Below are positions 763 through 31,077 of a stretch of DNA of 32,970 nucleotides, in pieces. A program made the translations under genes and the position numbers. The stretch is from a virus, in IMG/VR virus record IMGVR_UViG_3300025138_000182, positions 1 to 32,970 of that record. One strand, 5' to 3'. The notes below the pieces were generated by a model that worked only from the letters and a program-made list of their open reading frames with translations, made no database searches and was not told where the DNA came from. The stretch's first letter is position 1. Each line of letters opens with the position of its first letter.

Positions 763-2397
763 ATGCCATATGAGATAGTAATGGTAGATCCTGAGCTTGC
801 AAAGAGTGTATGTATTGGTAGGGCAATCACTGACAACAGTGACTACCTTGTTGATATGTACATTGAGAGATGGAAGCCTTACCCTGTCAGGCAGAATGAC
901 GAGATACATGATGGTGGTGGTCTGGTCGGTGGCTTCATCACCATTGCTGACAGCAAGGTGCGTGTCATGTTTGGTATGACACCAAGTGACAATGGTTTCA
1001 TTGTTCGTAGGGTTGCTAATCTACACCCTACTGATGCTGTGCTGCAAAGGTTTGGCCCCTTTGAGGATGACAATGCTTTCTTTCAAGATGATATCTTTGT
1101 CACTTGGCTCAGGAATTTTCTTCTCAAGTCTGACATGGATGAAAATGAACCTGATGATCAGAACTGGTTGTTACGTCTACGTGCATTGCAGCCTATCCGT
1201 TCCAAGATTTCACATGGTAAGATCAGTCTGTATCAAACCCGCAAGGATGCTGACAATGACAGGCATGTAGCTATGAAAGCTGGTCGTGCATTGAAGTATA
1301 TCTTTCCTGAGTTATCTGACTCAGACATTGAGATACTTGGTGATGCCTTCCGTGAGAAGTTCAGCTTACGTACCTTCACACTCAAGACAGGTACATCACC
1401 TGATGACTTCACTCATGCCTATTCACATGATCAAGCTGACATGGACAATCCTAGGACTACCACTACCAGAAAGGCTATTGCTCATTCATGTATGCGGTAT
1501 GAGTTTGAGAGACTTGAGGTTCACCCTTGCTCTATCTATGGCAGTGGTGACTTCAAGATTGCTTGGCTTGAGACTGACAAGGGTAAGATTGCTGGTCGTG
1601 TAGTGGTGTGTACATCACACAAGTCTAAACCTCAAGCTGGTCCTATCTATGGTGTCTGTGAAAATTCTCTGAATCAACTACAAGATTGGCTTGACAGTAT
1701 CAATGCAGTAGGGTATGACAGTGGATCATCTTGGATAGGTGCAAAGGTATTGGCTGTACCTTACGATGACAATGGTGCATACATCGGTCCATACTTAGAC
1801 GTGATGCCCCAACGTATGACTGAACCTGATGACGGTAAGTATCTCATTATTGATGGCTGTGGTGAGATAAATGCCAGTACATACCACGGCATACTCAATG
1901 GTCATTACACAAATTGTTCTGAGTGTGGTGATGGTCTTAGTGAGGATGATTACTACTACTCAGAATACACAGAGGAACATTACTGTGAGTGTTGTTACAA
2001 CAACGAGCATACTTACTGCGAAGTTACAGGTGACATGGTACACAACTCTGAGCTTGTTCAGGTATGGAGTAGCAGTAGGTGGGGTATACAGTCAGAGATG
2101 GTATCTGAGTGTGACCGTGACAACAACTACATAGAGTGTACTGATGGTAAGCATTGGCCTGATGATCAAGTATCATACTGTCAGTCCGAAGAGGTATGGA
2201 TATCACCTGTAGACATGGAAGATAATTACTTCCAATCAGATTGGGACGGTGAGGTATATCCCAATAGTGTCATGTGTACTACTGAAGATGGTGATAATGT
2301 GGCAGAGAGTGAGTTTCTTAAACATGAGGATACTTGGGATTGTGACACATCAGATGTATGGGTAAGAATACCAGAAGAGGAGTTTGAAAATGTATAG
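763..2397 (+). CDS. large acidic protein with Cys-rich C-terminal third, function unknown
   Basis: This 544-residue protein is not assigned to a family. Residues 1-370 are mixed alpha/beta without a recognised motif. From about residue 385 onward it is very rich in Cys, Asp, Glu, Tyr and Trp, with repeated knuckle-like pairs: CSECG, YCECC, YCEV and further single Cys in ECDRDN, IECTDG, SYCQ and MCTTE. The spacing suggests several zinc-binding knuckles folding a compact, acidic module. The start ATG has TAGGAG at a good distance. Its last 8 nt overlap the next gene, so the two are translationally coupled. Acidic, zinc-knuckled early phage proteins can act as inhibitors or DNA mimics, but nothing here proves that. 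Confidence 0.75.
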   Translation: MPYEIVMVDPELAKSVCIGRAITDNSDYLVDMYIERWKPYPVRQNDEIHDGGGLVGGFITIADSKVRVMFGMTPSDNGFIVRRVANLHPTDAVLQRFGPFEDDNAFFQDDIFVTWLRNFLLKSDMDENEPDDQNWLLRLRALQPIRSKISHGKISLYQTRKDADNDRHVAMKAGRALKYIFPELSDSDIEILGDAFREKFSLRTFTLKTGTSPDDFTHAYSHDQADMDNPRTTTTRKAIAHSCMRYEFERLEVHPCSIYGSGDFKIAWLETDKGKIAGRVVVCTSHKSKPQAGPIYGVCENSLNQLQDWLDSINAVGYDSGSSWIGAKVLAVPYDDNGAYIGPYLDVMPQRMTEPDDGKYLIIDGCGEINASTYHGILNGHYTNCSECGDGLSEDDYYYSEYTEEHYCECCYNNEHTYCEVTGDMVHNSELVQVWSSSRWGIQSEMVSECDRDNNYIECTDGKHWPDDQVSYCQSEEVWISPVDMEDNYFQSDWDGEVYPNSVMCTTEDGDNVAESEFLKHEDTWDCDTSDVWVRIPEEEFENV

Positions 2398-3370
2398 CTT
2401 AATAGAAATGCTGCGGTACAAAAGACCGCAAGGTTCCAGCACTCAGCAAGAGTTCTGTGAACGGTTCCTAGAACCACACTTTGGTTTGCCTGATATCAAC
2501 GGCAACTACATACTGCGTATAGGTGACAATCCCACCATATGCTTTGCGTCACACCATGACACAGTACACAAGACAGAGGGCTTACAAAAGCTAGTTGTTA
2601 CTAACAACATAGTATCCGTAGCTGACCCTACTATATCATCTTGCCTTGGTGCTGACTGTACTACTGGTATATGGCTCATGATGGGTATGATTGAGGCAGG
2701 TATTGAGGGTGTGTATGTAGTCCATGCAGCAGAAGAGTCTGGTTGTATTGGTAGTAGCGCACTTGTCAAGAGCAATCCTTATTGGTTGACACACATTGAC
2801 GCAGTGATATCCTTTGACAGATACGGTGACAACTCAGTGATCACACATCAGATGGGCAGACGTACAGCATCAGATGACTTTGCTAGATCATTTGCTGATG
2901 CACTTGACCTACCACAGCTTGTGGCTGACACAGGTGGTTCATACACTGACAGCAATGAGTATTCTGACAAAGTTCCTGAGTGTACCAACATCAGTGTAGG
3001 TTACTATGGTCAGCACGGTGTCAATGAGACACAAGACCTTGAGTATGCTGACCTGTTGATGTATGCCTTGACACAAGCTGACTGGTCCAAGCTAGTGATA
3101 TCACGTGATCCATCCATGTACGAGATGAACTATGGTGATGATGACTTTTGGAGAGGTTGGGATAGCTTAAGTGGTAAAACTTATGGTAACTACAATGAGC
3201 CTCTGGATAATTATGACACTGAGGATATGCACATATTAGTTTCAGAACATCCTGATCTAGTAACTAAAATGCTTATTGAGATGGGGTTCACACCTGATCT
3301 ACTGATTGACGAGGCCAAGATTGAATCACGGAGTTATGCCAATGATTATGTAGCAAGAAAGTACATGTGA
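2390..3370 (+). CDS. M20/M28-like zinc metallopeptidase
   Basis: A probable two-zinc hydrolase of the M20/M28 clan. All five ligand positions can be read: H55-x-D57 in SHHDT, bridging D89 in LGADCTTG, E115-E116 in AAEESG (base and ligand), D143 in SFDRYG, and a C-terminal H209 in YGQHGVN. ATG 2390 is chosen over an in-frame TTG at 2384 because AGAGGAG lies 7 nt upstream; this gives 326 residues and an 8-nt overlap with the previous gene. No dimerisation insert is obvious, and the last 80 residues are acidic and unassigned. The substrate is unknown: a peptide, acyl-amino acid or cell-wall fragment is possible. There is no signal peptide, so it should act in the cytoplasm. Confidence 0.7.
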   Translation: MYSLIEMLRYKRPQGSSTQQEFCERFLEPHFGLPDINGNYILRIGDNPTICFASHHDTVHKTEGLQKLVVTNNIVSVADPTISSCLGADCTTGIWLMMGMIEAGIEGVYVVHAAEESGCIGSSALVKSNPYWLTHIDAVISFDRYGDNSVITHQMGRRTASDDFARSFADALDLPQLVADTGGSYTDSNEYSDKVPECTNISVGYYGQHGVNETQDLEYADLLMYALTQADWSKLVISRDPSMYEMNYGDDDFWRGWDSLSGKTYGNYNEPLDNYDTEDMHILVSEHPDLVTKMLIEMGFTPDLLIDEAKIESRSYANDYVARKYM

Positions 3371-3491: not shown

Positions 3492-4580
3492 ATGAAGTAT
3501 ACACATAAGATCAAACGAAAGATTGACGGTGGTACAAGCTGGATGTTTGTTCCACCAGATGACGTAGTTAGGGCTGGGATATTATCCACTAAGACATTTA
3601 GGGATGGTCGTACAGCTAGGCATGAGATACCCAAGCTAATAGCTTTAGTTGACAGCTTTAGGAGAGGGGAGATAGTAGTAGGTAGATGTGGTCCAAGCTC
3701 TACCATAAGCCAAGTCCTAGACTACTACCTAAACACAAAGCATTTTAATTCTCTGTCGTACAACACACAGAAAAACTATGAGTACAATCTTAAATCTATT
3801 TGTGCTGGCACTGTGTTTAATAAATCAGTAGGCAATACTCCGCTCAACAGGTTGAACACAAACATATGCACTGAGATGTACGACCAGTGGGAAGCCTCTG
3901 TAAGTACAGATCATGCTAATCAATTAGCTAGGATATTCTCGGTGCTTATCAACTACTGTATTTCAATAGAGTTGATGATGTATAACCCCATGAAGAACGT
4001 GAAGAAGCGTAGCCACACACCACGTTCAATCATCTGGACCAATGAACAGGTTGAGTTGTTCTTAGACACAGCGTTCAGTAAATACAAGTGGCGTAACGTA
4101 GGGTTGCTTGTACTGTTTGCATACGAGTGGGGTCAACGTCCTGTGGACATACGCAACCTCACATGGGACAGCATTGACTTCACTAAGAAGACTGCAACTA
4201 TCACACAATCTAAACGTGGTGCTACCGTTGAGTTACCTATTGATGATCGCCTGATGGAGATGCTTGAGCAACAAGATGCTGATTGGGGTTGGCAACAGTA
4301 TGTAGTACCCTGTCAGAGAGCATCAGACAACGCCTACAGACCACTCTCTGTTAGTCAGATGACCTACCTAGTGGGTGAGGTAAAGGATGCCTGTGGCTTA
4401 TCATCAGAGCTACGTGTGGGTGATCTAAGAAAGACAGCTATAGTTGAGATGATTAAGGGTGGGGCTGAGGCTATGCAGGTTATGTCTGTCACTGGGCATA
4501 AGAACATTACGTCACTCAACCCCTACCTCAAACATAATCTTGAGACTGCTACTGAGGCATTGGATAGGAGAAAGAGATGA
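3492..4580 (+). CDS. int: tyrosine recombinase / phage integrase
   Basis: A 362-residue tyrosine integrase that would catalyse site-specific recombination between phage and host att sites. It has an N-terminal arm-binding region, a SAM-like core-binding domain (about 70-175) and a catalytic domain (about 180-362). The catalytic residues seen are R216 (GQRPVDIRNLTW), K241 (QSKRGA), R313 (GDLRKT), H336 (TGH) and nucleophile Y345 (PYLKH), with the usual 9-residue H-to-Y spacing. The position that is usually His in HxxR is G310. Start ATG follows AGAAGG. The upstream AT-rich palindromes may be arm sites or operators. Its stop overlaps the next start as ATGA. It supports a temperate or formerly temperate lifestyle. 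Confidence 0.93.
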   Translation: MKYTHKIKRKIDGGTSWMFVPPDDVVRAGILSTKTFRDGRTARHEIPKLIALVDSFRRGEIVVGRCGPSSTISQVLDYYLNTKHFNSLSYNTQKNYEYNLKSICAGTVFNKSVGNTPLNRLNTNICTEMYDQWEASVSTDHANQLARIFSVLINYCISIELMMYNPMKNVKKRSHTPRSIIWTNEQVELFLDTAFSKYKWRNVGLLVLFAYEWGQRPVDIRNLTWDSIDFTKKTATITQSKRGATVELPIDDRLMEMLEQQDADWGWQQYVVPCQRASDNAYRPLSVSQMTYLVGEVKDACGLSSELRVGDLRKTAIVEMIKGGAEAMQVMSVTGHKNITSLNPYLKHNLETATEALDRRKR

Positions 4581-4741
4581 AGGCTAGAGAAGAACTACTT
4601 AGGGATATAGGAGCATTAAAACGTGAGGCTGAATACTGGGAGTTAGAAGCTAAAAGATTGGTGGTTAAGTATCATGATTTAAAGAAAGACTTAACTAAAG
4701 CTAAGGCAGAGCTGGAACTATGGAAAGGTACAGCACCTTGA
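4577..4741 (+). CDS. 54-residue coiled-coil peptide
   Basis: The ATG overlaps the integrase stop as ATGA, with TAGGAGAAAGAG just upstream as ribosome site. The product begins MKAREELLRDIGALK and is almost entirely charged helix with Leu/Ala/Val at heptad spacing, ending KAELELWKGTAP. It has no membrane segment. It is too short for an excisionase with a winged HTH and shows no such fold. It overlaps the transporter start by 22 nt, so it may act as a translational leader as well as a product. Confidence 0.55.
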   Translation: MKAREELLRDIGALKREAEYWELEAKRLVVKYHDLKKDLTKAKAELELWKGTAP

Positions 4742-5172
4742 ATAACTATGTATATACAGCCATTGGACTTGTAGTCTTTTATGTGGGACTAAAAATGTTT
4801 AGTGGGGGTATGAAATCTATGGGTAACATAGACCACTTGACTTGGTTTTTGGGCAACCCAATCTATATGTTCTTTGGGTCAATCGTTATGACACTGGCAT
4901 GGCAGAGTAGTAGCCTATCCACTACGGCTATCATTGCATTGGTTGCATCAGGTGTACTACCGTTACCTTCTGCTGTGGCTGCTGTGCTTGGGGCTAACAT
5001 AGGTACGACAGGTACGATCTGGTTGGCAGGGCTGCTAGTGTCTGACGGTATGCCAAGAGGTGACACATTACGCATAGCCATGATACACACTGGTGTTAAT
5101 CTTTTGATGGCGATAAGTCTGTTGCCATTTGTAAATCACATAGCTAAATTTGTAGGGAAGGTAGGTCAATGA
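4720..5172 (+). CDS. half-length Na+/phosphate cotransporter (single repeat)
   Basis: The 150-residue membrane protein matches one Na/Pi-cotransporter (SLC34/NptA, Na_Pi_cotrans) repeat from end to end. Helix 1 is about residues 11-31 (GLKMFSGGMKSMG). The family signature Q62-S-S-S65 lies in TLAWQSSSLSTTA, and G91-ANIGTT97 follows in the second signature. RIAMIHTGVNLL (118-129) begins the last helix. Full transporters such as NptA or YjbB carry two inverted copies, each with a QSSS, so this is half of one. It would have to work as a dimer, with both topologies if it copies the family fold. It is coupled to the genes on both sides (22-nt overlap, then ATGA). No strong ribosome site precedes ATG 4720; a TTG at 4738 with GGAAAGG upstream is an alternative start. 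Likely role: phosphate uptake in the inner membrane. Confidence 0.85.
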   Translation: MERYSTLNNYVYTAIGLVVFYVGLKMFSGGMKSMGNIDHLTWFLGNPIYMFFGSIVMTLAWQSSSLSTTAIIALVASGVLPLPSAVAAVLGANIGTTGTIWLAGLLVSDGMPRGDTLRIAMIHTGVNLLMAISLLPFVNHIAKFVGKVGQ

Positions 5173-5486
5173 GACAGCACATATACGAAACGTGGACACT
5201 GATCATGGACTCAGATAGAAGCCCACTAAGGAATATACCTGACAACAATGCCCGTCATTTAATCCTGCAGATACTTGCATGGATGTGGTGCATTGTGTTT
5301 AGTATTTTCTTGGGTAGCTATGTTGTGTTTGGTCTAACAGCAATAGCTCACGTGTTACTATTAGCTGCAATAGCTATCACCGTTGGTACGTTTGATACTG
5401 CTAACAGAAACCCAAAGATGTTGTCTGATTTCGCTAGGAGAATTGACGGATATAATGGTAGACGTAACAACGGAGAGCATGACTGA
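5169..5486 (+). CDS. two-helix membrane protein next to the transporter
   Basis: The 105-residue product has a polar N-terminus of about 30 residues, two hydrophobic helices (about 31-54, rich in Trp/Ile/Phe, and about 56-76), and an Arg-rich polar tail (RRIDGYNGRRNNG). It starts in an ATGA overlap with the Na/Pi gene and ends in a TGATG overlap with thyX, so it sits in one coupled run. Under the positive-inside rule both ends would lie in the cytoplasm. No family is recognised. A partner subunit for the transporter or a holin-like protein are both conceivable. Confidence 0.6.
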   Translation: MRQHIYETWTLIMDSDRSPLRNIPDNNARHLILQILAWMWCIVFSIFLGSYVVFGLTAIAHVLLLAAIAITVGTFDTANRNPKMLSDFARRIDGYNGRRNNGEHD

Positions 5487-6163
5487 TGATTGAAGTAACA
5501 TACATAGACCACATGGGTAGTGACTTGTCTGTAGTTAATGCAGCACGTGTATCCTTCGGTAAAAATAGTAAGGAATTAGGTTGGAGTGGTGTTGAAGGGG
5601 ACCGTATGACACCTATCCTACATGATACAGACAAGAGGTTGATCAAGTACTTAGCCAAGCATAAGCATATGTCACCATTCGGTCATGCCTTTGCATCCTT
5701 CCATGTTAAGGCGCCTATCTTTGTGGCTAGACAGTTAGTCAAGCACAAGTTCCTACGGTGGAATGAGATTAGTCGTAGGTATGTTAAGACTGACCCTGAG
5801 TTCTACTATCCTGATCATTATCGTCAATCATCTGATGATAAGAAGCAAGGATCAGGTGGTAGAGTAGAGGATGCTGTAGGCAATATGTCTATACAAAATG
5901 TGACTAGGCATGTTGCTCAGTGCTTAATACTGTATCAAAACTTACTCTCTGATGGGGTGTGTGAGGAACAAGCACGTATAGTACTACCACAGAACACAAT
6001 CACTGAATGGTATTGGTCAGGTAGTCTTGATGCCTTTGCTGATATGTGCAATCTAAGATGCAAAGAGGATACGCAATTTGAAACTTCACAGGCAGCACGG
6101 TGTGTGTCTCAGGGCATGAGAGATTTATTTCCTATATCATGGGGGGCTTTAGTTGATGGGTGA
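5486..6163 (+). CDS. thyX: flavin-dependent thymidylate synthase ThyX
   Basis: ThyX methylates dUMP to dTMP with methylene-THF, FAD and NADPH, giving the phage its own thymidylate supply. The signature is seen as KHKFLRWNEISRRY at residues 86-99; it aligns with the usual RHRxxSxNExSxRY, with the active-site Ser at S96. Two motif Arg are replaced by Lys (K86, K88), and the first motif Ser by R91. The C-terminal half has the expected QARIVLPQNTITEWYWSGSLDAF and the FETSQAAR region. Length, 225 residues, is normal. The start is ATG in a TGATG overlap; the end overlaps the primase-helicase by 8 nt. Confidence 0.93.
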   Translation: MIEVTYIDHMGSDLSVVNAARVSFGKNSKELGWSGVEGDRMTPILHDTDKRLIKYLAKHKHMSPFGHAFASFHVKAPIFVARQLVKHKFLRWNEISRRYVKTDPEFYYPDHYRQSSDDKKQGSGGRVEDAVGNMSIQNVTRHVAQCLILYQNLLSDGVCEEQARIVLPQNTITEWYWSGSLDAFADMCNLRCKEDTQFETSQAARCVSQGMRDLFPISWGALVDG

Positions 6164-27890: not shown

Positions 27891-28928
27891 TTATGCTAAA
27901 CCACCGTGTGAAACTGAAGCAGTACCTCCAAGAGTGTACCGTACACCACTGTCACCAAAGTCACTTGCATTTCCTGTTGATGCAATAACTATATGTTCAA
28001 TTCTAGTATTATCACCACTTGGCGCATTTGTACCCCCTGCAAAATAACCAAGTGTTTTAGAAGAAGCCCCACCAACTGATTGTTTAGTTTCTGTTAAATC
28101 ACCAAAGTCTGAAGCATTTCCAGTTGAAGCTATGGTAACGTATTGTATAACATTAACATTGCCGCTAACACTGCCACCAGCTATTACCCCTCTTGTACTA
28201 CTAGCAAGTGCGCCGGGACTTAAATTAACTGCTAAAAGATCACCAAAATCAGTAACATCACCTGTAGAGGCTATAGTAATATATTTAATTTCATCTCTTC
28301 TGCTGCTACCGTTATAACCCCCACAAAAAAGCCCTCTTGTTGTAGATGCAAGTCCTACCTGACCATAAGAATTTTCATCAAAATCACCAAAGTCTGTAGC
28401 ATTGCCTGTTGTATCAATAGTTACATATTCAATAACATTATTTGCAGAAGCATCACCCCCAGACCTAATAGCTCTTGTACCATTAGAAAGAGTACCCGGT
28501 TGATATGCTGCAGTAGTAGCATCTCCAAAATCAGCACCATCACCTGCTGTAACCATATTATAATACTGAATATTATTTATTTTATTGTTGTTTGAATCTA
28601 TACCCATAAAAAGTATAGCACGTGTAGAGGAAGAACATTGCCCGCAGCCGCCATTAGAAATGGGTGTATGTAAATCCCCAAACTCAACATTATCATTAGC
28701 TGTAGTAGTTAAATTAATAGACCTAATAGATTTAGAACCGCTAGCCATGTATTGACTAGTAAAAAAACCTCTTTGTGCATTCCCAGACGTAGGCCAATTA
28801 CCGCCTCTTACATAATCATATTGATCTTGTAAGTTCCACACACCAGATGCTGCATCATCCTGAAACTTACCACTAGGTTCTACTTTTGTGGCAGAGATTA
28901 TGTTGCCTGTCATTTGTTTATATGACAT
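27891..28928 (-). CDS. kelch-like beta-propeller virion protein 3
   Basis: The third of three tandem paralogues (345 residues) has an N-terminal adaptor (MSYKQMTGNIISAT, then ASGVWNLQDQYDY) and six propeller repeats. Each repeat centres on an IASTGNASDFGDL-like strand followed by a TRGVxAGG-like strand. The first two repeats are more divergent. The protein ends SHGGLA, a half blade that may close the ring against the N-terminal part. ATG 28928 overlaps the previous stop as TAATG, with GGAGG upstream; a longer in-frame TTG start is rejected. Likely a surface adhesin or tail spike in the particle; the ligand is unknown. Confidence 0.7.
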   Translation of the reverse strand: MSYKQMTGNIISATKVEPSGKFQDDAASGVWNLQDQYDYVRGGNWPTSGNAQRGFFTSQYMASGSKSIRSINLTTTANDNVEFGDLHTPISNGGCGQCSSSTRAILFMGIDSNNNKINNIQYYNMVTAGDGADFGDATTAAYQPGTLSNGTRAIRSGGDASANNVIEYVTIDTTGNATDFGDFDENSYGQVGLASTTRGLFCGGYNGSSRRDEIKYITIASTGDVTDFGDLLAVNLSPGALASSTRGVIAGGSVSGNVNVIQYVTIASTGNASDFGDLTETKQSVGGASSKTLGYFAGGTNAPSGDNTRIEHIVIASTGNASDFGDSGVRYTLGGTASVSHGGLA

Positions 28929-30720
28929 TATCCTAGTCCTCCGTGACCAGAAGAGCAACTGGTTAAAAATTGTCGGGCAACAGTCAGATCACCAAAATCA
29001 GAAAAACTACCTGAAGAAGCTATAGTAGTACTTTCAATTACATTAAGTTTATTATCACTAGCATCAGACCCTCCTGATGCAAGGGCAGTATTACCACCTG
29101 AAACCATAGCCACTTGAGATTTTGCAACACTTAAATCACCAAAGTCTGTAGCATTACCAGTGCTTGCAGTTACAAAATCTTCTACTGTATTAACAGCACC
29201 ACTCGCAGTTGAGCCTATTCCAATTAAAGTTATAGTACTAGACGAGCAGCCTGATGAGTAAGTTCCTGCTGTAACTAAATCACCAAAGTCAGAAGCATTA
29301 CCAGTAGAGGCTATAGTTAAATAGTCTATAGTATTATAACGTGTAGATGTATAATTACCTCCTGCATAAACAATTCTAGTTGTATTACTTCCAGCCCCTG
29401 ATCTTGCCCTTGTTATGTTAAGATCACCAAAGTCTTGAGAATTACCCTCAGAAGCTATGGTTATATATTCCATTGTATTATTATGATTACCGCCTTTAAA
29501 TGCACAACTATAAACACCTCTAGTTTCATTTGATGCTGCAGCACCTTGTGCAAAAGTATCAGACAAATCACCAAAGTCACTTGCATTTCCTGTAGTTGCA
29601 AATGTGACAAACTGTATTACATTATCGTTGGCTGATCCATTATAACCTCCTGCAATAACCCCTCTAGTAGAACTTGACATACTTGCAACACCGTCACGTA
29701 TAGTAGTCAAATCCCCAAAGTCTGTAGCATTAGCTGCAGTAGATACAACTAAAAAGTCAATTACATTTGACCTTCCACCACTAGCTACTCCACCCGCTAT
29801 AATTGCTATGGCTGGTGGAACAGGCCAATCACTAACATACTGAAGATGTGTTGAGAGGCTCCATACACCATTATAGTTGGGCATTAGGCTAGTCCTCCGT
29901 GAGTGTTAGAACAAGCTCCAAACTCATTGTTTAATACTTGCATATCGCCAAAGTCTGCAGCGTTACCTGTGGTGGCTATTGTAACAAAATCCATAACATT
30001 AGATGGACTTGCATCTGAACCCGGACCCCATACGGCACGAATAGATGAGGATACTCCACCGCTAGTATGTCTTGCATCCGTAAGATCACCAAAGTCTGTG
30101 GCATTGCCTGTGGAGGCTATAGTGATATAATCTATAACATTTGATGCTCCACCAGAAGTCTCATAAGCAGCAAAAAGCCCTCTAGTAGATGAGGCTACCG
30201 CACTATTACCACTTGACCCTGCTGCTTGTGTTAAGTCTCCAAAGTCTGATCCATTACCTGTTGAAGCTATCGTAATATAATCTATTTTATTTGAGAAATT
30301 ACCACCAAAATATCCTGCACCATATACACCTCTCGTAGCAGATGCTAATCCAGATAAACCATAAACGTACTGAGTGGGGTCTCCGAAATCTGTTGCATTA
30401 CCAGCAGATGCTATAGTAATATAATCTATTACAGTATTTCCACCATCACCACCAGCCCAAATCCCCCTAGTAGAGTTTGAAAAGGAAGCTGCCTTTTGAC
30501 GATCATCTGTTAAGTTTCCAAAATCAGTGGCGTTTCCAGCAGATGCAAAGGTTACATAGTCTATTACATCTAGCTTTCCTGTATCATCTTCACCACCGCC
30601 CCACACACCTCTTGTTTCAGACCCTAATGCTCTACGCCCATAAGTACCTACTGTTAAGTCACCGAAATCAGATGAATTACCTTCAGTAGTAATGTTAATT
30701 TGTTCTATTGTTACTTGTGA
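27905..30720 (-). repeat. 18 propeller-blade repeats in three genes
   Basis: Six repeats of about 48-52 residues (roughly 150 bp) occur in each of three adjacent genes. On the + strand the shared DNA reads TCACCAAAGTC-x-GA/GT, then GCATT(A/T)CC, and a GAAGCTAT or GAGGCTAT block before ATAATATA-like DNA. The similarity at base level could allow blades to be exchanged by recombination. Confidence 0.75.
28928..29884 (-). CDS. kelch-like beta-propeller virion protein 2
   Basis: The 318-residue paralogue begins MPNYNGVWSLSTHLQYV, a short adaptor that shares GVW-x-L with the next gene, and then has six repeats carrying DFGDL. These include VIQFVTFATTGNASDFGDL and TIDYLTIASTGNASDFGDL. It ends SSGHGGLG. 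Start and stop are both in TAATG overlaps. The GGAGGA in the last codons of the upstream gene acts as its ribosome site. It lacks the fibronectin domain of its upstream sibling. An alternate ring subunit or a second adhesin is likely. Confidence 0.72.
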   Translation of the reverse strand: MPNYNGVWSLSTHLQYVSDWPVPPAIAIIAGGVASGGRSNVIDFLVVSTAANATDFGDLTTIRDGVASMSSSTRGVIAGGYNGSANDNVIQFVTFATTGNASDFGDLSDTFAQGAAASNETRGVYSCAFKGGNHNNTMEYITIASEGNSQDFGDLNITRARSGAGSNTTRIVYAGGNYTSTRYNTIDYLTIASTGNASDFGDLVTAGTYSSGCSSSTITLIGIGSTASGAVNTVEDFVTASTGNATDFGDLSVAKSQVAMVSGGNTALASGGSDASDNKLNVIESTTIASSGSFSDFGDLTVARQFLTSCSSGHGGLG

Positions 30721-31077
30721 TACTCCACCTCCAAACAAACCTATAGATGCAACAGGAGTAAAACTGTCACTAGCATCGCTAGGGGAAGATGTACCGTAAG
30801 CATTTATAGCCCATACTTTAGCTGTAGCTGCAGTACCGTTAGTAAGACTGCTCACAACAATAGGTGAAGACGTACCTGTACCAGAACCTGCACTATAAGC
30901 TGTACCGTCTGTACTAACCTGTGCAACAAAACCTGTGATAGCAGAAGTACCTGTATCAGTAGGAGCAGTAAATGCTACACTTACCTGTGCATCACCCCCA
31001 GAAGCACTAACACCTGTTGGTGGATCAGGTGCATCTAATCCATCAGTACCAATAAAGCCACCGTTACGTCTTGCCAT
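29884..31077 (-). CDS. fibronectin III plus kelch-like beta-propeller virion protein 1
   Basis: The first of the three propeller genes (397 residues). After MARRNGGFIG a fibronectin type III-like domain covers about residues 13-108 (APDPPTGVSASGGDAQVSV, TAKVWAINAYGTSSPSD). Six repeats with the DFGDL motif follow, such as VIDYITIASTGNATDFGDL. It ends SNTHGGLA. The FN3 module is a common add-on in phage tail proteins and may stick to sugars or act as a spacer. The ribosome site is weak, so expression may depend on coupling to the upstream gene 2 nt away. Confidence 0.75.
   Translation of the reverse strand: MARRNGGFIGTDGLDAPDPPTGVSASGGDAQVSVAFTAPTDTGTSAITGFVAQVSTDGTAYSAGSGTGTSSPIVVSSLTNGTAATAKVWAINAYGTSSPSDASDSFTPVASIGLFGGGVSQVTIEQINITTEGNSSDFGDLTVGTYGRRALGSETRGVWGGGEDDTGKLDVIDYVTFASAGNATDFGNLTDDRQKAASFSNSTRGIWAGGDGGNTVIDYITIASAGNATDFGDPTQYVYGLSGLASATRGVYGAGYFGGNFSNKIDYITIASTGNGSDFGDLTQAAGSSGNSAVASSTRGLFAAYETSGGASNVIDYITIASTGNATDFGDLTDARHTSGGVSSSIRAVWGPGSDASPSNVMDFVTIATTGNAADFGDMQVLNNEFGACSNTHGGLA

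Follow-up and report, generated by a model that had tools for sequence, protein, structure and literature searches.

Carrier gene and its neighbours in the window

The window analysed here is the whole of IMG/VR virus record IMGVR_UViG_3300025138_000182, a stretch of 32,970 nucleotides. The features at the locus are given below, with residues numbered from the ATG at 4720.

3492..4580, + strand: tyrosine integrase (Pfam Phage_integrase 8e-19, PHROG 1)
4577..4741, + strand: upstream 54-aa ORF, charged, probably coiled-coil, overlapping the integrase and carrier genes
4720..4737, + strand: ATG start of the initial annotation and six extra codons, probably untranslated in the carrier frame
4738..5172, + strand: half-size Na/Pi carrier gene read from its probable TTG start (144 aa; Pfam Na_Pi_cotrans E=1.3e-14)
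4858..4947, + strand: predicted re-entrant hairpin, residues 47-76 (AlphaFold2 helices 47-61 and 64-76 around QSSS, pLDDT ~90)
4903..4914, + strand: QSSS motif, residues 62-65 (SSS kept in all 125 distinct relatives, Q in 124 of them)
4990..5010, + strand: GANIGTT motif, residues 91-97, on the helix that follows the hairpin, aligned with both SLC34A2a repeats
5169..5486, + strand: downstream 105-aa hydrophobic membrane protein (similar ORF in only 18/223 loci)
5486..6163, + strand: ThyX thymidylate synthase (Pfam Thy1 2.6e-42), last in the overlapping gene chain

The carrier gene lies behind the integrase, as the initial annotation had it, with the 54-aa ORF between them. From the integrase through the 54-aa ORF, the carrier and the 105-aa membrane protein to thyX, each gene overlaps the next, an arrangement that points to translational coupling along the chain; the 54-aa ORF has stop/start overlaps at both ends, with the integrase and with the carrier. 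No match to this ORF was found in Pfam or PHROG, and a small ORF resembling it is present about 150 nt upstream of the carrier in 35 related loci. The 105-aa protein gave no significant family match in Pfam, PHROGs or NCBIfam, and its rarity at the loci compared rules it out as an obligate partner. A thyX gene neighbours the carrier in 57 loci. Elsewhere in the window, a predicted peptidase (2384-3370, + strand; PHROG 4191, E=4.9e-74) lies upstream of the integrase and is unusual cargo for a phage early region, and three consecutive proteins made of repeated 'I(A/T)STGNA(S/T)DFGDL' units (27891-31077, - strand) are probably beta-propeller-like tail or fibre proteins.

The ORF at 4720-5172 (+) has 150 codons and a stop-free translation. 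The reading frame is real, but the ATG at 4720 is a less likely start than the TTG at 4738. The codon for residue 7 was a start codon in 50 of 50 window-clade homologues (ATG 26, GTG 21, TTG 3), lying within the four bases (NTGA) that the carrier shares with the upstream 54-aa ORF, and substitutions 5' of it lacked the codon periodicity of the carrier frame. Because this start codon is kept and periodicity is missing before it, the true start is probably TTG 4738, giving a product of 144 aa, with GAAAGG at 4723-4728 as an SD-like sequence. The extra residues, MERYST, are probably a read-through of the upstream ORF's frame, and the conservation of 4720..4737 is probably due to the overlapping upstream gene.

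Pfam returned a single Na_Pi_cotrans (PF02690) stretch in the window protein, at 54.8 bits against a gathering cut-off of 29.1, a strong match that bears out the homology to SLC34/NptA proposed in the initial annotation; 21 of 21 aligned relatives matched the same family. The motifs QSSS (62-65), GANIGTT (91-97) and RIA-x2-H (RIAMIH, 118-123) are all where that annotation placed them. Its observation that the gene holds only one repeat also stands, since a search of the whole 33-kb record found no other encoded PF02690 repeat. The full-length NCBIfam models scored 38.1 (NF037997), 48.5 (TIGR00704) and 31.6 bits (TIGR01013), below their cut-offs of 50, 210 and 306 bits, as expected because this is a half protein. 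SLC34A2a (9z60 and sister entries) was the sole solved relative found by sequence; it was matched by the family profile at 5e-31, and its two repeats matched the window protein about equally (34.6 and 36.0 bits). Profiles of cellular repeats 1 and 2 scored the phage protein at 57 and 67 bits, respectively. As both match, with repeat 2 slightly better and over the full length, an origin as an RU1/RU2 chimera was set aside.

The phage protein shares the QSSS hairpin, the GxNIGTT motif, the HxxxN helix and the helix order with SLC34/NptA/YjbB (PF02690, TIGR00704, NF037997), and it matches each repeat of these proteins in profiles and in the PDB. Whereas they have two inverted repeats per chain and frames of about 400-950 aa, the phage protein has one repeat, no PhoU-like tail and a frame of about 144-166 aa.

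A conserved one-repeat form in many phages

Four IMG/VR scans, with four different members as queries, each returned from at least 484 to at least 596 relatives. All 160 distinct genes hold one repeat and none is fused; the gene ends at query position 148-150 in 159 of them and at 159 in the remaining one. Two inverted repeats in one chain, as in SLC34/NptA, were found neither in the window gene nor in these 160, so the suggestion that related phages carry a full two-repeat gene failed. No second repeat was found near the carrier at the 298 phage loci fetched, some of which are repeat views of one contig. Searching 47 viral contigs of 22-177 kb as whole records gave exactly one PF02690 match in each (47/47), in frames of 128-182 aa, the 128-aa frame being cut by a contig end. 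The median pairwise dN/dS of about 0.08 indicates purifying selection. Cellular two-repeat queries matched only three viral contigs, with genes of 547-611 aa at 32-35% identity that look like host genes. The low dN/dS, the constant length and the lack of two-repeat phage relatives rule out a broken copy. What is shown is a single-repeat family member that many phages conserve under selection.

In the cellular genomes sampled, the family nearly always takes the two-repeat form. Matches above the cut-off were found in 25 of 61 and at least 46 of 79 genomes of two bacterial phyla, those to which the Helicobacteraceae and Verrucomicrobia loci belong; alphaproteobacterial hosts are outside this sample. 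Among the matches listed, from 71 bacterial genomes, nearly all cellular members are two-repeat frames: those above the cut-off are of at least 404 aa, apart from a 222-aa frame at the edge of a contig, and a few frames of 162-309 aa that score below it cannot be counted as clear members. Most second repeats of cellular proteins pass the PF02690 cut-off. One MAG classified by GTDB as Chloroflexi (locus L082, genome G001) holds a phage-type half gene, 72% identical, as a 165-aa frame on a 28-kb contig, which may be a prophage or a mis-binned phage contig and could hint at a host. In a tree with 12 cellular repeats, which come from only six cellular proteins, 125 distinct phage cores formed one group free of any cellular repeat (support 0.77).

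The window phage appears to be HMO-2011-like or a mosaic, with replication and structural genes nearest those of Roseobacter phages CRP-13, CRP-2 and CRP-6: the primase region is 74.7% identical in nucleotides to CRP-13, a 1219-aa protein is 32% identical to CRP-13 and 24% to CRP-2, and the DNA polymerase is 56% identical to CRP-6. The carrier was also found in an unrelated context. Besides HMO-2011-like roseophage relatives, where it lies behind the integrase and before thyX, it occurs in T4-like phages beside gp59; a T4 gp59-like gene directly follows it in 20 related loci, and a T4-type gp23 capsid gene is present in 7 of 47 carrier-bearing records. PHROGs has no family for the carrier and gave no real match. 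In 50,697 phage isolate records, only distant, unannotated matches were found, labelled Listeria, Staphylococcus or faecal phage; these look cellular, and no clear phage isolate appears to encode the carrier.

Linkage to other phosphate genes was unsupported. PhoH was present in 3 of 47 carrier records and PstS in none of 20, so no second phosphate gene marks the carrier phages. Other neighbours were seen. In 20 deep-clade loci (cluster 11; L088, L120 and others), a Bmp/PnrA-like ABC substrate-binding protein (Pfam E=5e-44) lies near the carrier and is possibly a phage-borne part of nucleoside uptake. In 43 loci (cluster 1; L092, L098 and others), a 291-aa class II tRNA-synthetase-like protein (tRNA-synt_2, E=1.6e-20) is encoded beside it, mostly on the opposite strand; it is too short to hold an anticodon domain as well, and could be an enzyme of the asparagine-synthetase type. 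In L149 (cluster 17, 18 loci), a gene recognised by eye as an IscU/NifU-like Fe-S scaffold sits roughly 675 to 286 nt 5' of the carrier.

A 2022 study described PF02690 genes in eight HMO-2011-type genomes of subgroup I and reported them as a phosphate AMG (PMC9038755), so the claim of a new type of auxiliary gene in the initial annotation falls. By its description, that gene agrees with the window gene in Pfam family, broad phage group and proposed phosphate role, and the available part of the report does not mention half size, conservation, occurrence in T4-like phages or topology. Viral Na+/phosphate symporters also feature in an estuarine survey from 2026 (PMC13288924), again with half size and topology unmentioned in the part available. 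Algal giant viruses, which infect eukaryotes, carry host-derived sodium/phosphate symporters (PMC6163359); these have the idea of virus-borne phosphate uptake in common with the phage carrier, but are proteins of 459-534 aa. Set against the available parts of the 2022 and 2026 reports, what seems new is that the carrier has one repeat and has spread into T4-like phages, together with the question of its topology.

Predicted structure, ion sites and membrane orientation

AlphaFold2, run with 35 aligned sequences, gave a model of the phage protein with pLDDT 85 and pTM 0.77 and helices at 2-34, 38-44, 47-61, 64-76, 82-106 and 115-147, with QSSS at the turn of the 47-76 hairpin. In the same prediction for a cellular two-repeat protein, the phage helix order occurs twice. 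In these models each repeat crosses the membrane with an odd number of helices, a requirement for inverted repeats. A Foldseek search of the PDB and BFVD with the phage model gave no significant match; a two-repeat control likewise gave none, which makes the search uninformative, and the solved SLC34A2a entry 9z60, absent from the fold matches, is probably outside the searched library.

In published models, phosphate and two sodium ions sit in the space between the two hairpins, where the QSSS motifs and the threonines of NIGTTTT form the lining (PMC6325988). The residues lining the modelled phosphate, Na2 and Na3 sites (QSSS, NIGTTxT) are essentially invariant in the phages, as are H123 and N127, and A92, N93, G95, T96 and T97 are identical in 125 of 125 distinct relatives. 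In a mapping counted by hand through the SLC34A2a alignment, the Na1-site residues D209 and N227 seem to be kept as D109 and N127, and D224 and S447 of mammalian NaPi-II would be replaced by T124 and A92. The D224G substitution makes NaPi-IIa electroneutral. With a threonine at the corresponding position, an electroneutral phage carrier is plausible.

The few charged loop residues described in the initial annotation are as stated. With the membrane sides assigned from the AlphaFold2 helix order, K+R comes to 2.0 on one side and 3.0 on the other in the window's clade, close to the dual-topology range on the predicted fold, and such a near-zero bias is compatible with the dual topology suggested there. 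The window's clade has no leader. Two deeper clades have an in-frame upstream leader, MKKKHRxLYDSWKYKKGN or MKVSKKAKLIKKVQK, in which substitutions are enriched at third codon positions, indicating that it is translated. Counted from the outer start, the T4-like and related clades have K+R values of 8.5 or 7.8 against about 3.4, and from the inner start 1.0 against about 3.4. With a ratio of about 8 to 3.4, full-length products of the leader clades should have the N-terminus inside, and pure dual topology of the full-length T4-like product is unlikely.

All 50 distinct leader sequences examined contain an inner start codon, ATG or TTG, in many cases preceded by an SD-like sequence, so that use of both starts could yield the protein in two orientations. 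The long form, with its basic leader, would have the N-terminus inside, and the short form, from the inner ATG, would have it outside. Since the SD strength at the inner start showed only a modest excess over synonymous recodings (mean percentile 0.26), we offer this as a conjecture; that the protein is an antiparallel one-repeat SLC34 homodimer for which a single gene in the T4-like clades makes both orientations from two starts is doubtful.

Proposed mechanism and alternatives

We infer, at about even chances, that the one-repeat protein is an antiparallel, dual-topology homodimer working as a Na+/phosphate symporter that marine phages express in infection. By sequence and prediction, each chain gives one long helix, the QSSS re-entrant hairpin, the NIGTTxT helix and the final H-x3-N helix. 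A cellular chain has these elements twice, the second set inverted relative to the first, and the published models put the phosphate and sodium sites between the hairpins, so the phage protein would most likely insert both ways and pair antiparallel, rebuilding the two-repeat carrier. As one repeat is conserved and never joined to a second, two copies probably pair head-to-tail. The homodimer would use the sodium gradient of seawater to take up phosphate together with sodium, and the added phosphate would benefit infection by feeding DNA synthesis alongside the phage thyX and ribonucleotide reductase. The precedent in unrelated families is solid. Like the phage protein, SMR/EmrE, Fluc, DUF606 and UPF0016 have a single repeat; in them it pairs antiparallel, with low K+R bias, as proposed for the phage protein, though their sequences are unrelated and outside SLC34. 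In UPF0016 and DUF606 the single stage is accompanied by paired and fused ones (PMC4067407), whereas the phage carriers show neither of the latter.

A half protein of fixed orientation might instead join a host membrane protein, replacing or capping a transporter repeat or regulating a phosphate carrier, as the initial annotation also proposed. The basic leader of the T4-like clades, under coding constraint, would hold the N-terminus in the cytoplasm as this reading expects, but the window's clade has no leader, very different phages would all need a compatible host partner, and the sampled genomes, with two-repeat carriers in just 25/61 and at least 46/79, do not assure one. Both key motifs are moreover invariant, as expected of a working site, and we regard a host partner as rather unlikely. 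The same invariance, at the modelled phosphate, Na2 and Na3 sites (PMC6325988), argues against a working one-repeat carrier of some other anion or one that acts mainly through a sodium leak or a change in membrane potential. Phosphate is taken from the family only, the mammalian Na1 residues D224 and S447 appear replaced, and phosphate genes seldom co-occur with the carrier; another substrate or effect is thus marginally less probable than a host partner.

A heterodimer, its second half supplied by a separate and very divergent phage gene, is improbable to a much greater degree. A hydrophobic protein does directly follow the carrier in the window, but it has no family match and few counterparts (18/223 loci), none of the 47 whole records, one 177-kb T4-like record included, held a second PF02690 match, and cellular second repeats are mostly detectable above the cut-off. 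Having one of the two family repeats would also suit a functionless remnant of a host-derived two-repeat gene, but with a dN/dS of 0.08, the same length in 160 distinct genes across many phage lineages, and two-repeat genes in only three viral contigs (547-611 aa, 32-35% identical to the cellular query), a remnant is barely credible.

Inverted-repeat transporters are thought to derive from single-repeat proteins that paired antiparallel. To our knowledge, the single-repeat stage survives in no member of most families of such transporters. If the antiparallel homodimer reading is true, the one-repeat Na+/phosphate carrier would be a surviving single-repeat stage for the medically important SLC34 family, and that stage would be testable with a 144-aa protein. 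It would also be a widely distributed phosphate-uptake gene of abundant ocean phages, one without representatives in isolates or PHROGs, and it may serve where there is no pstS or phoH.
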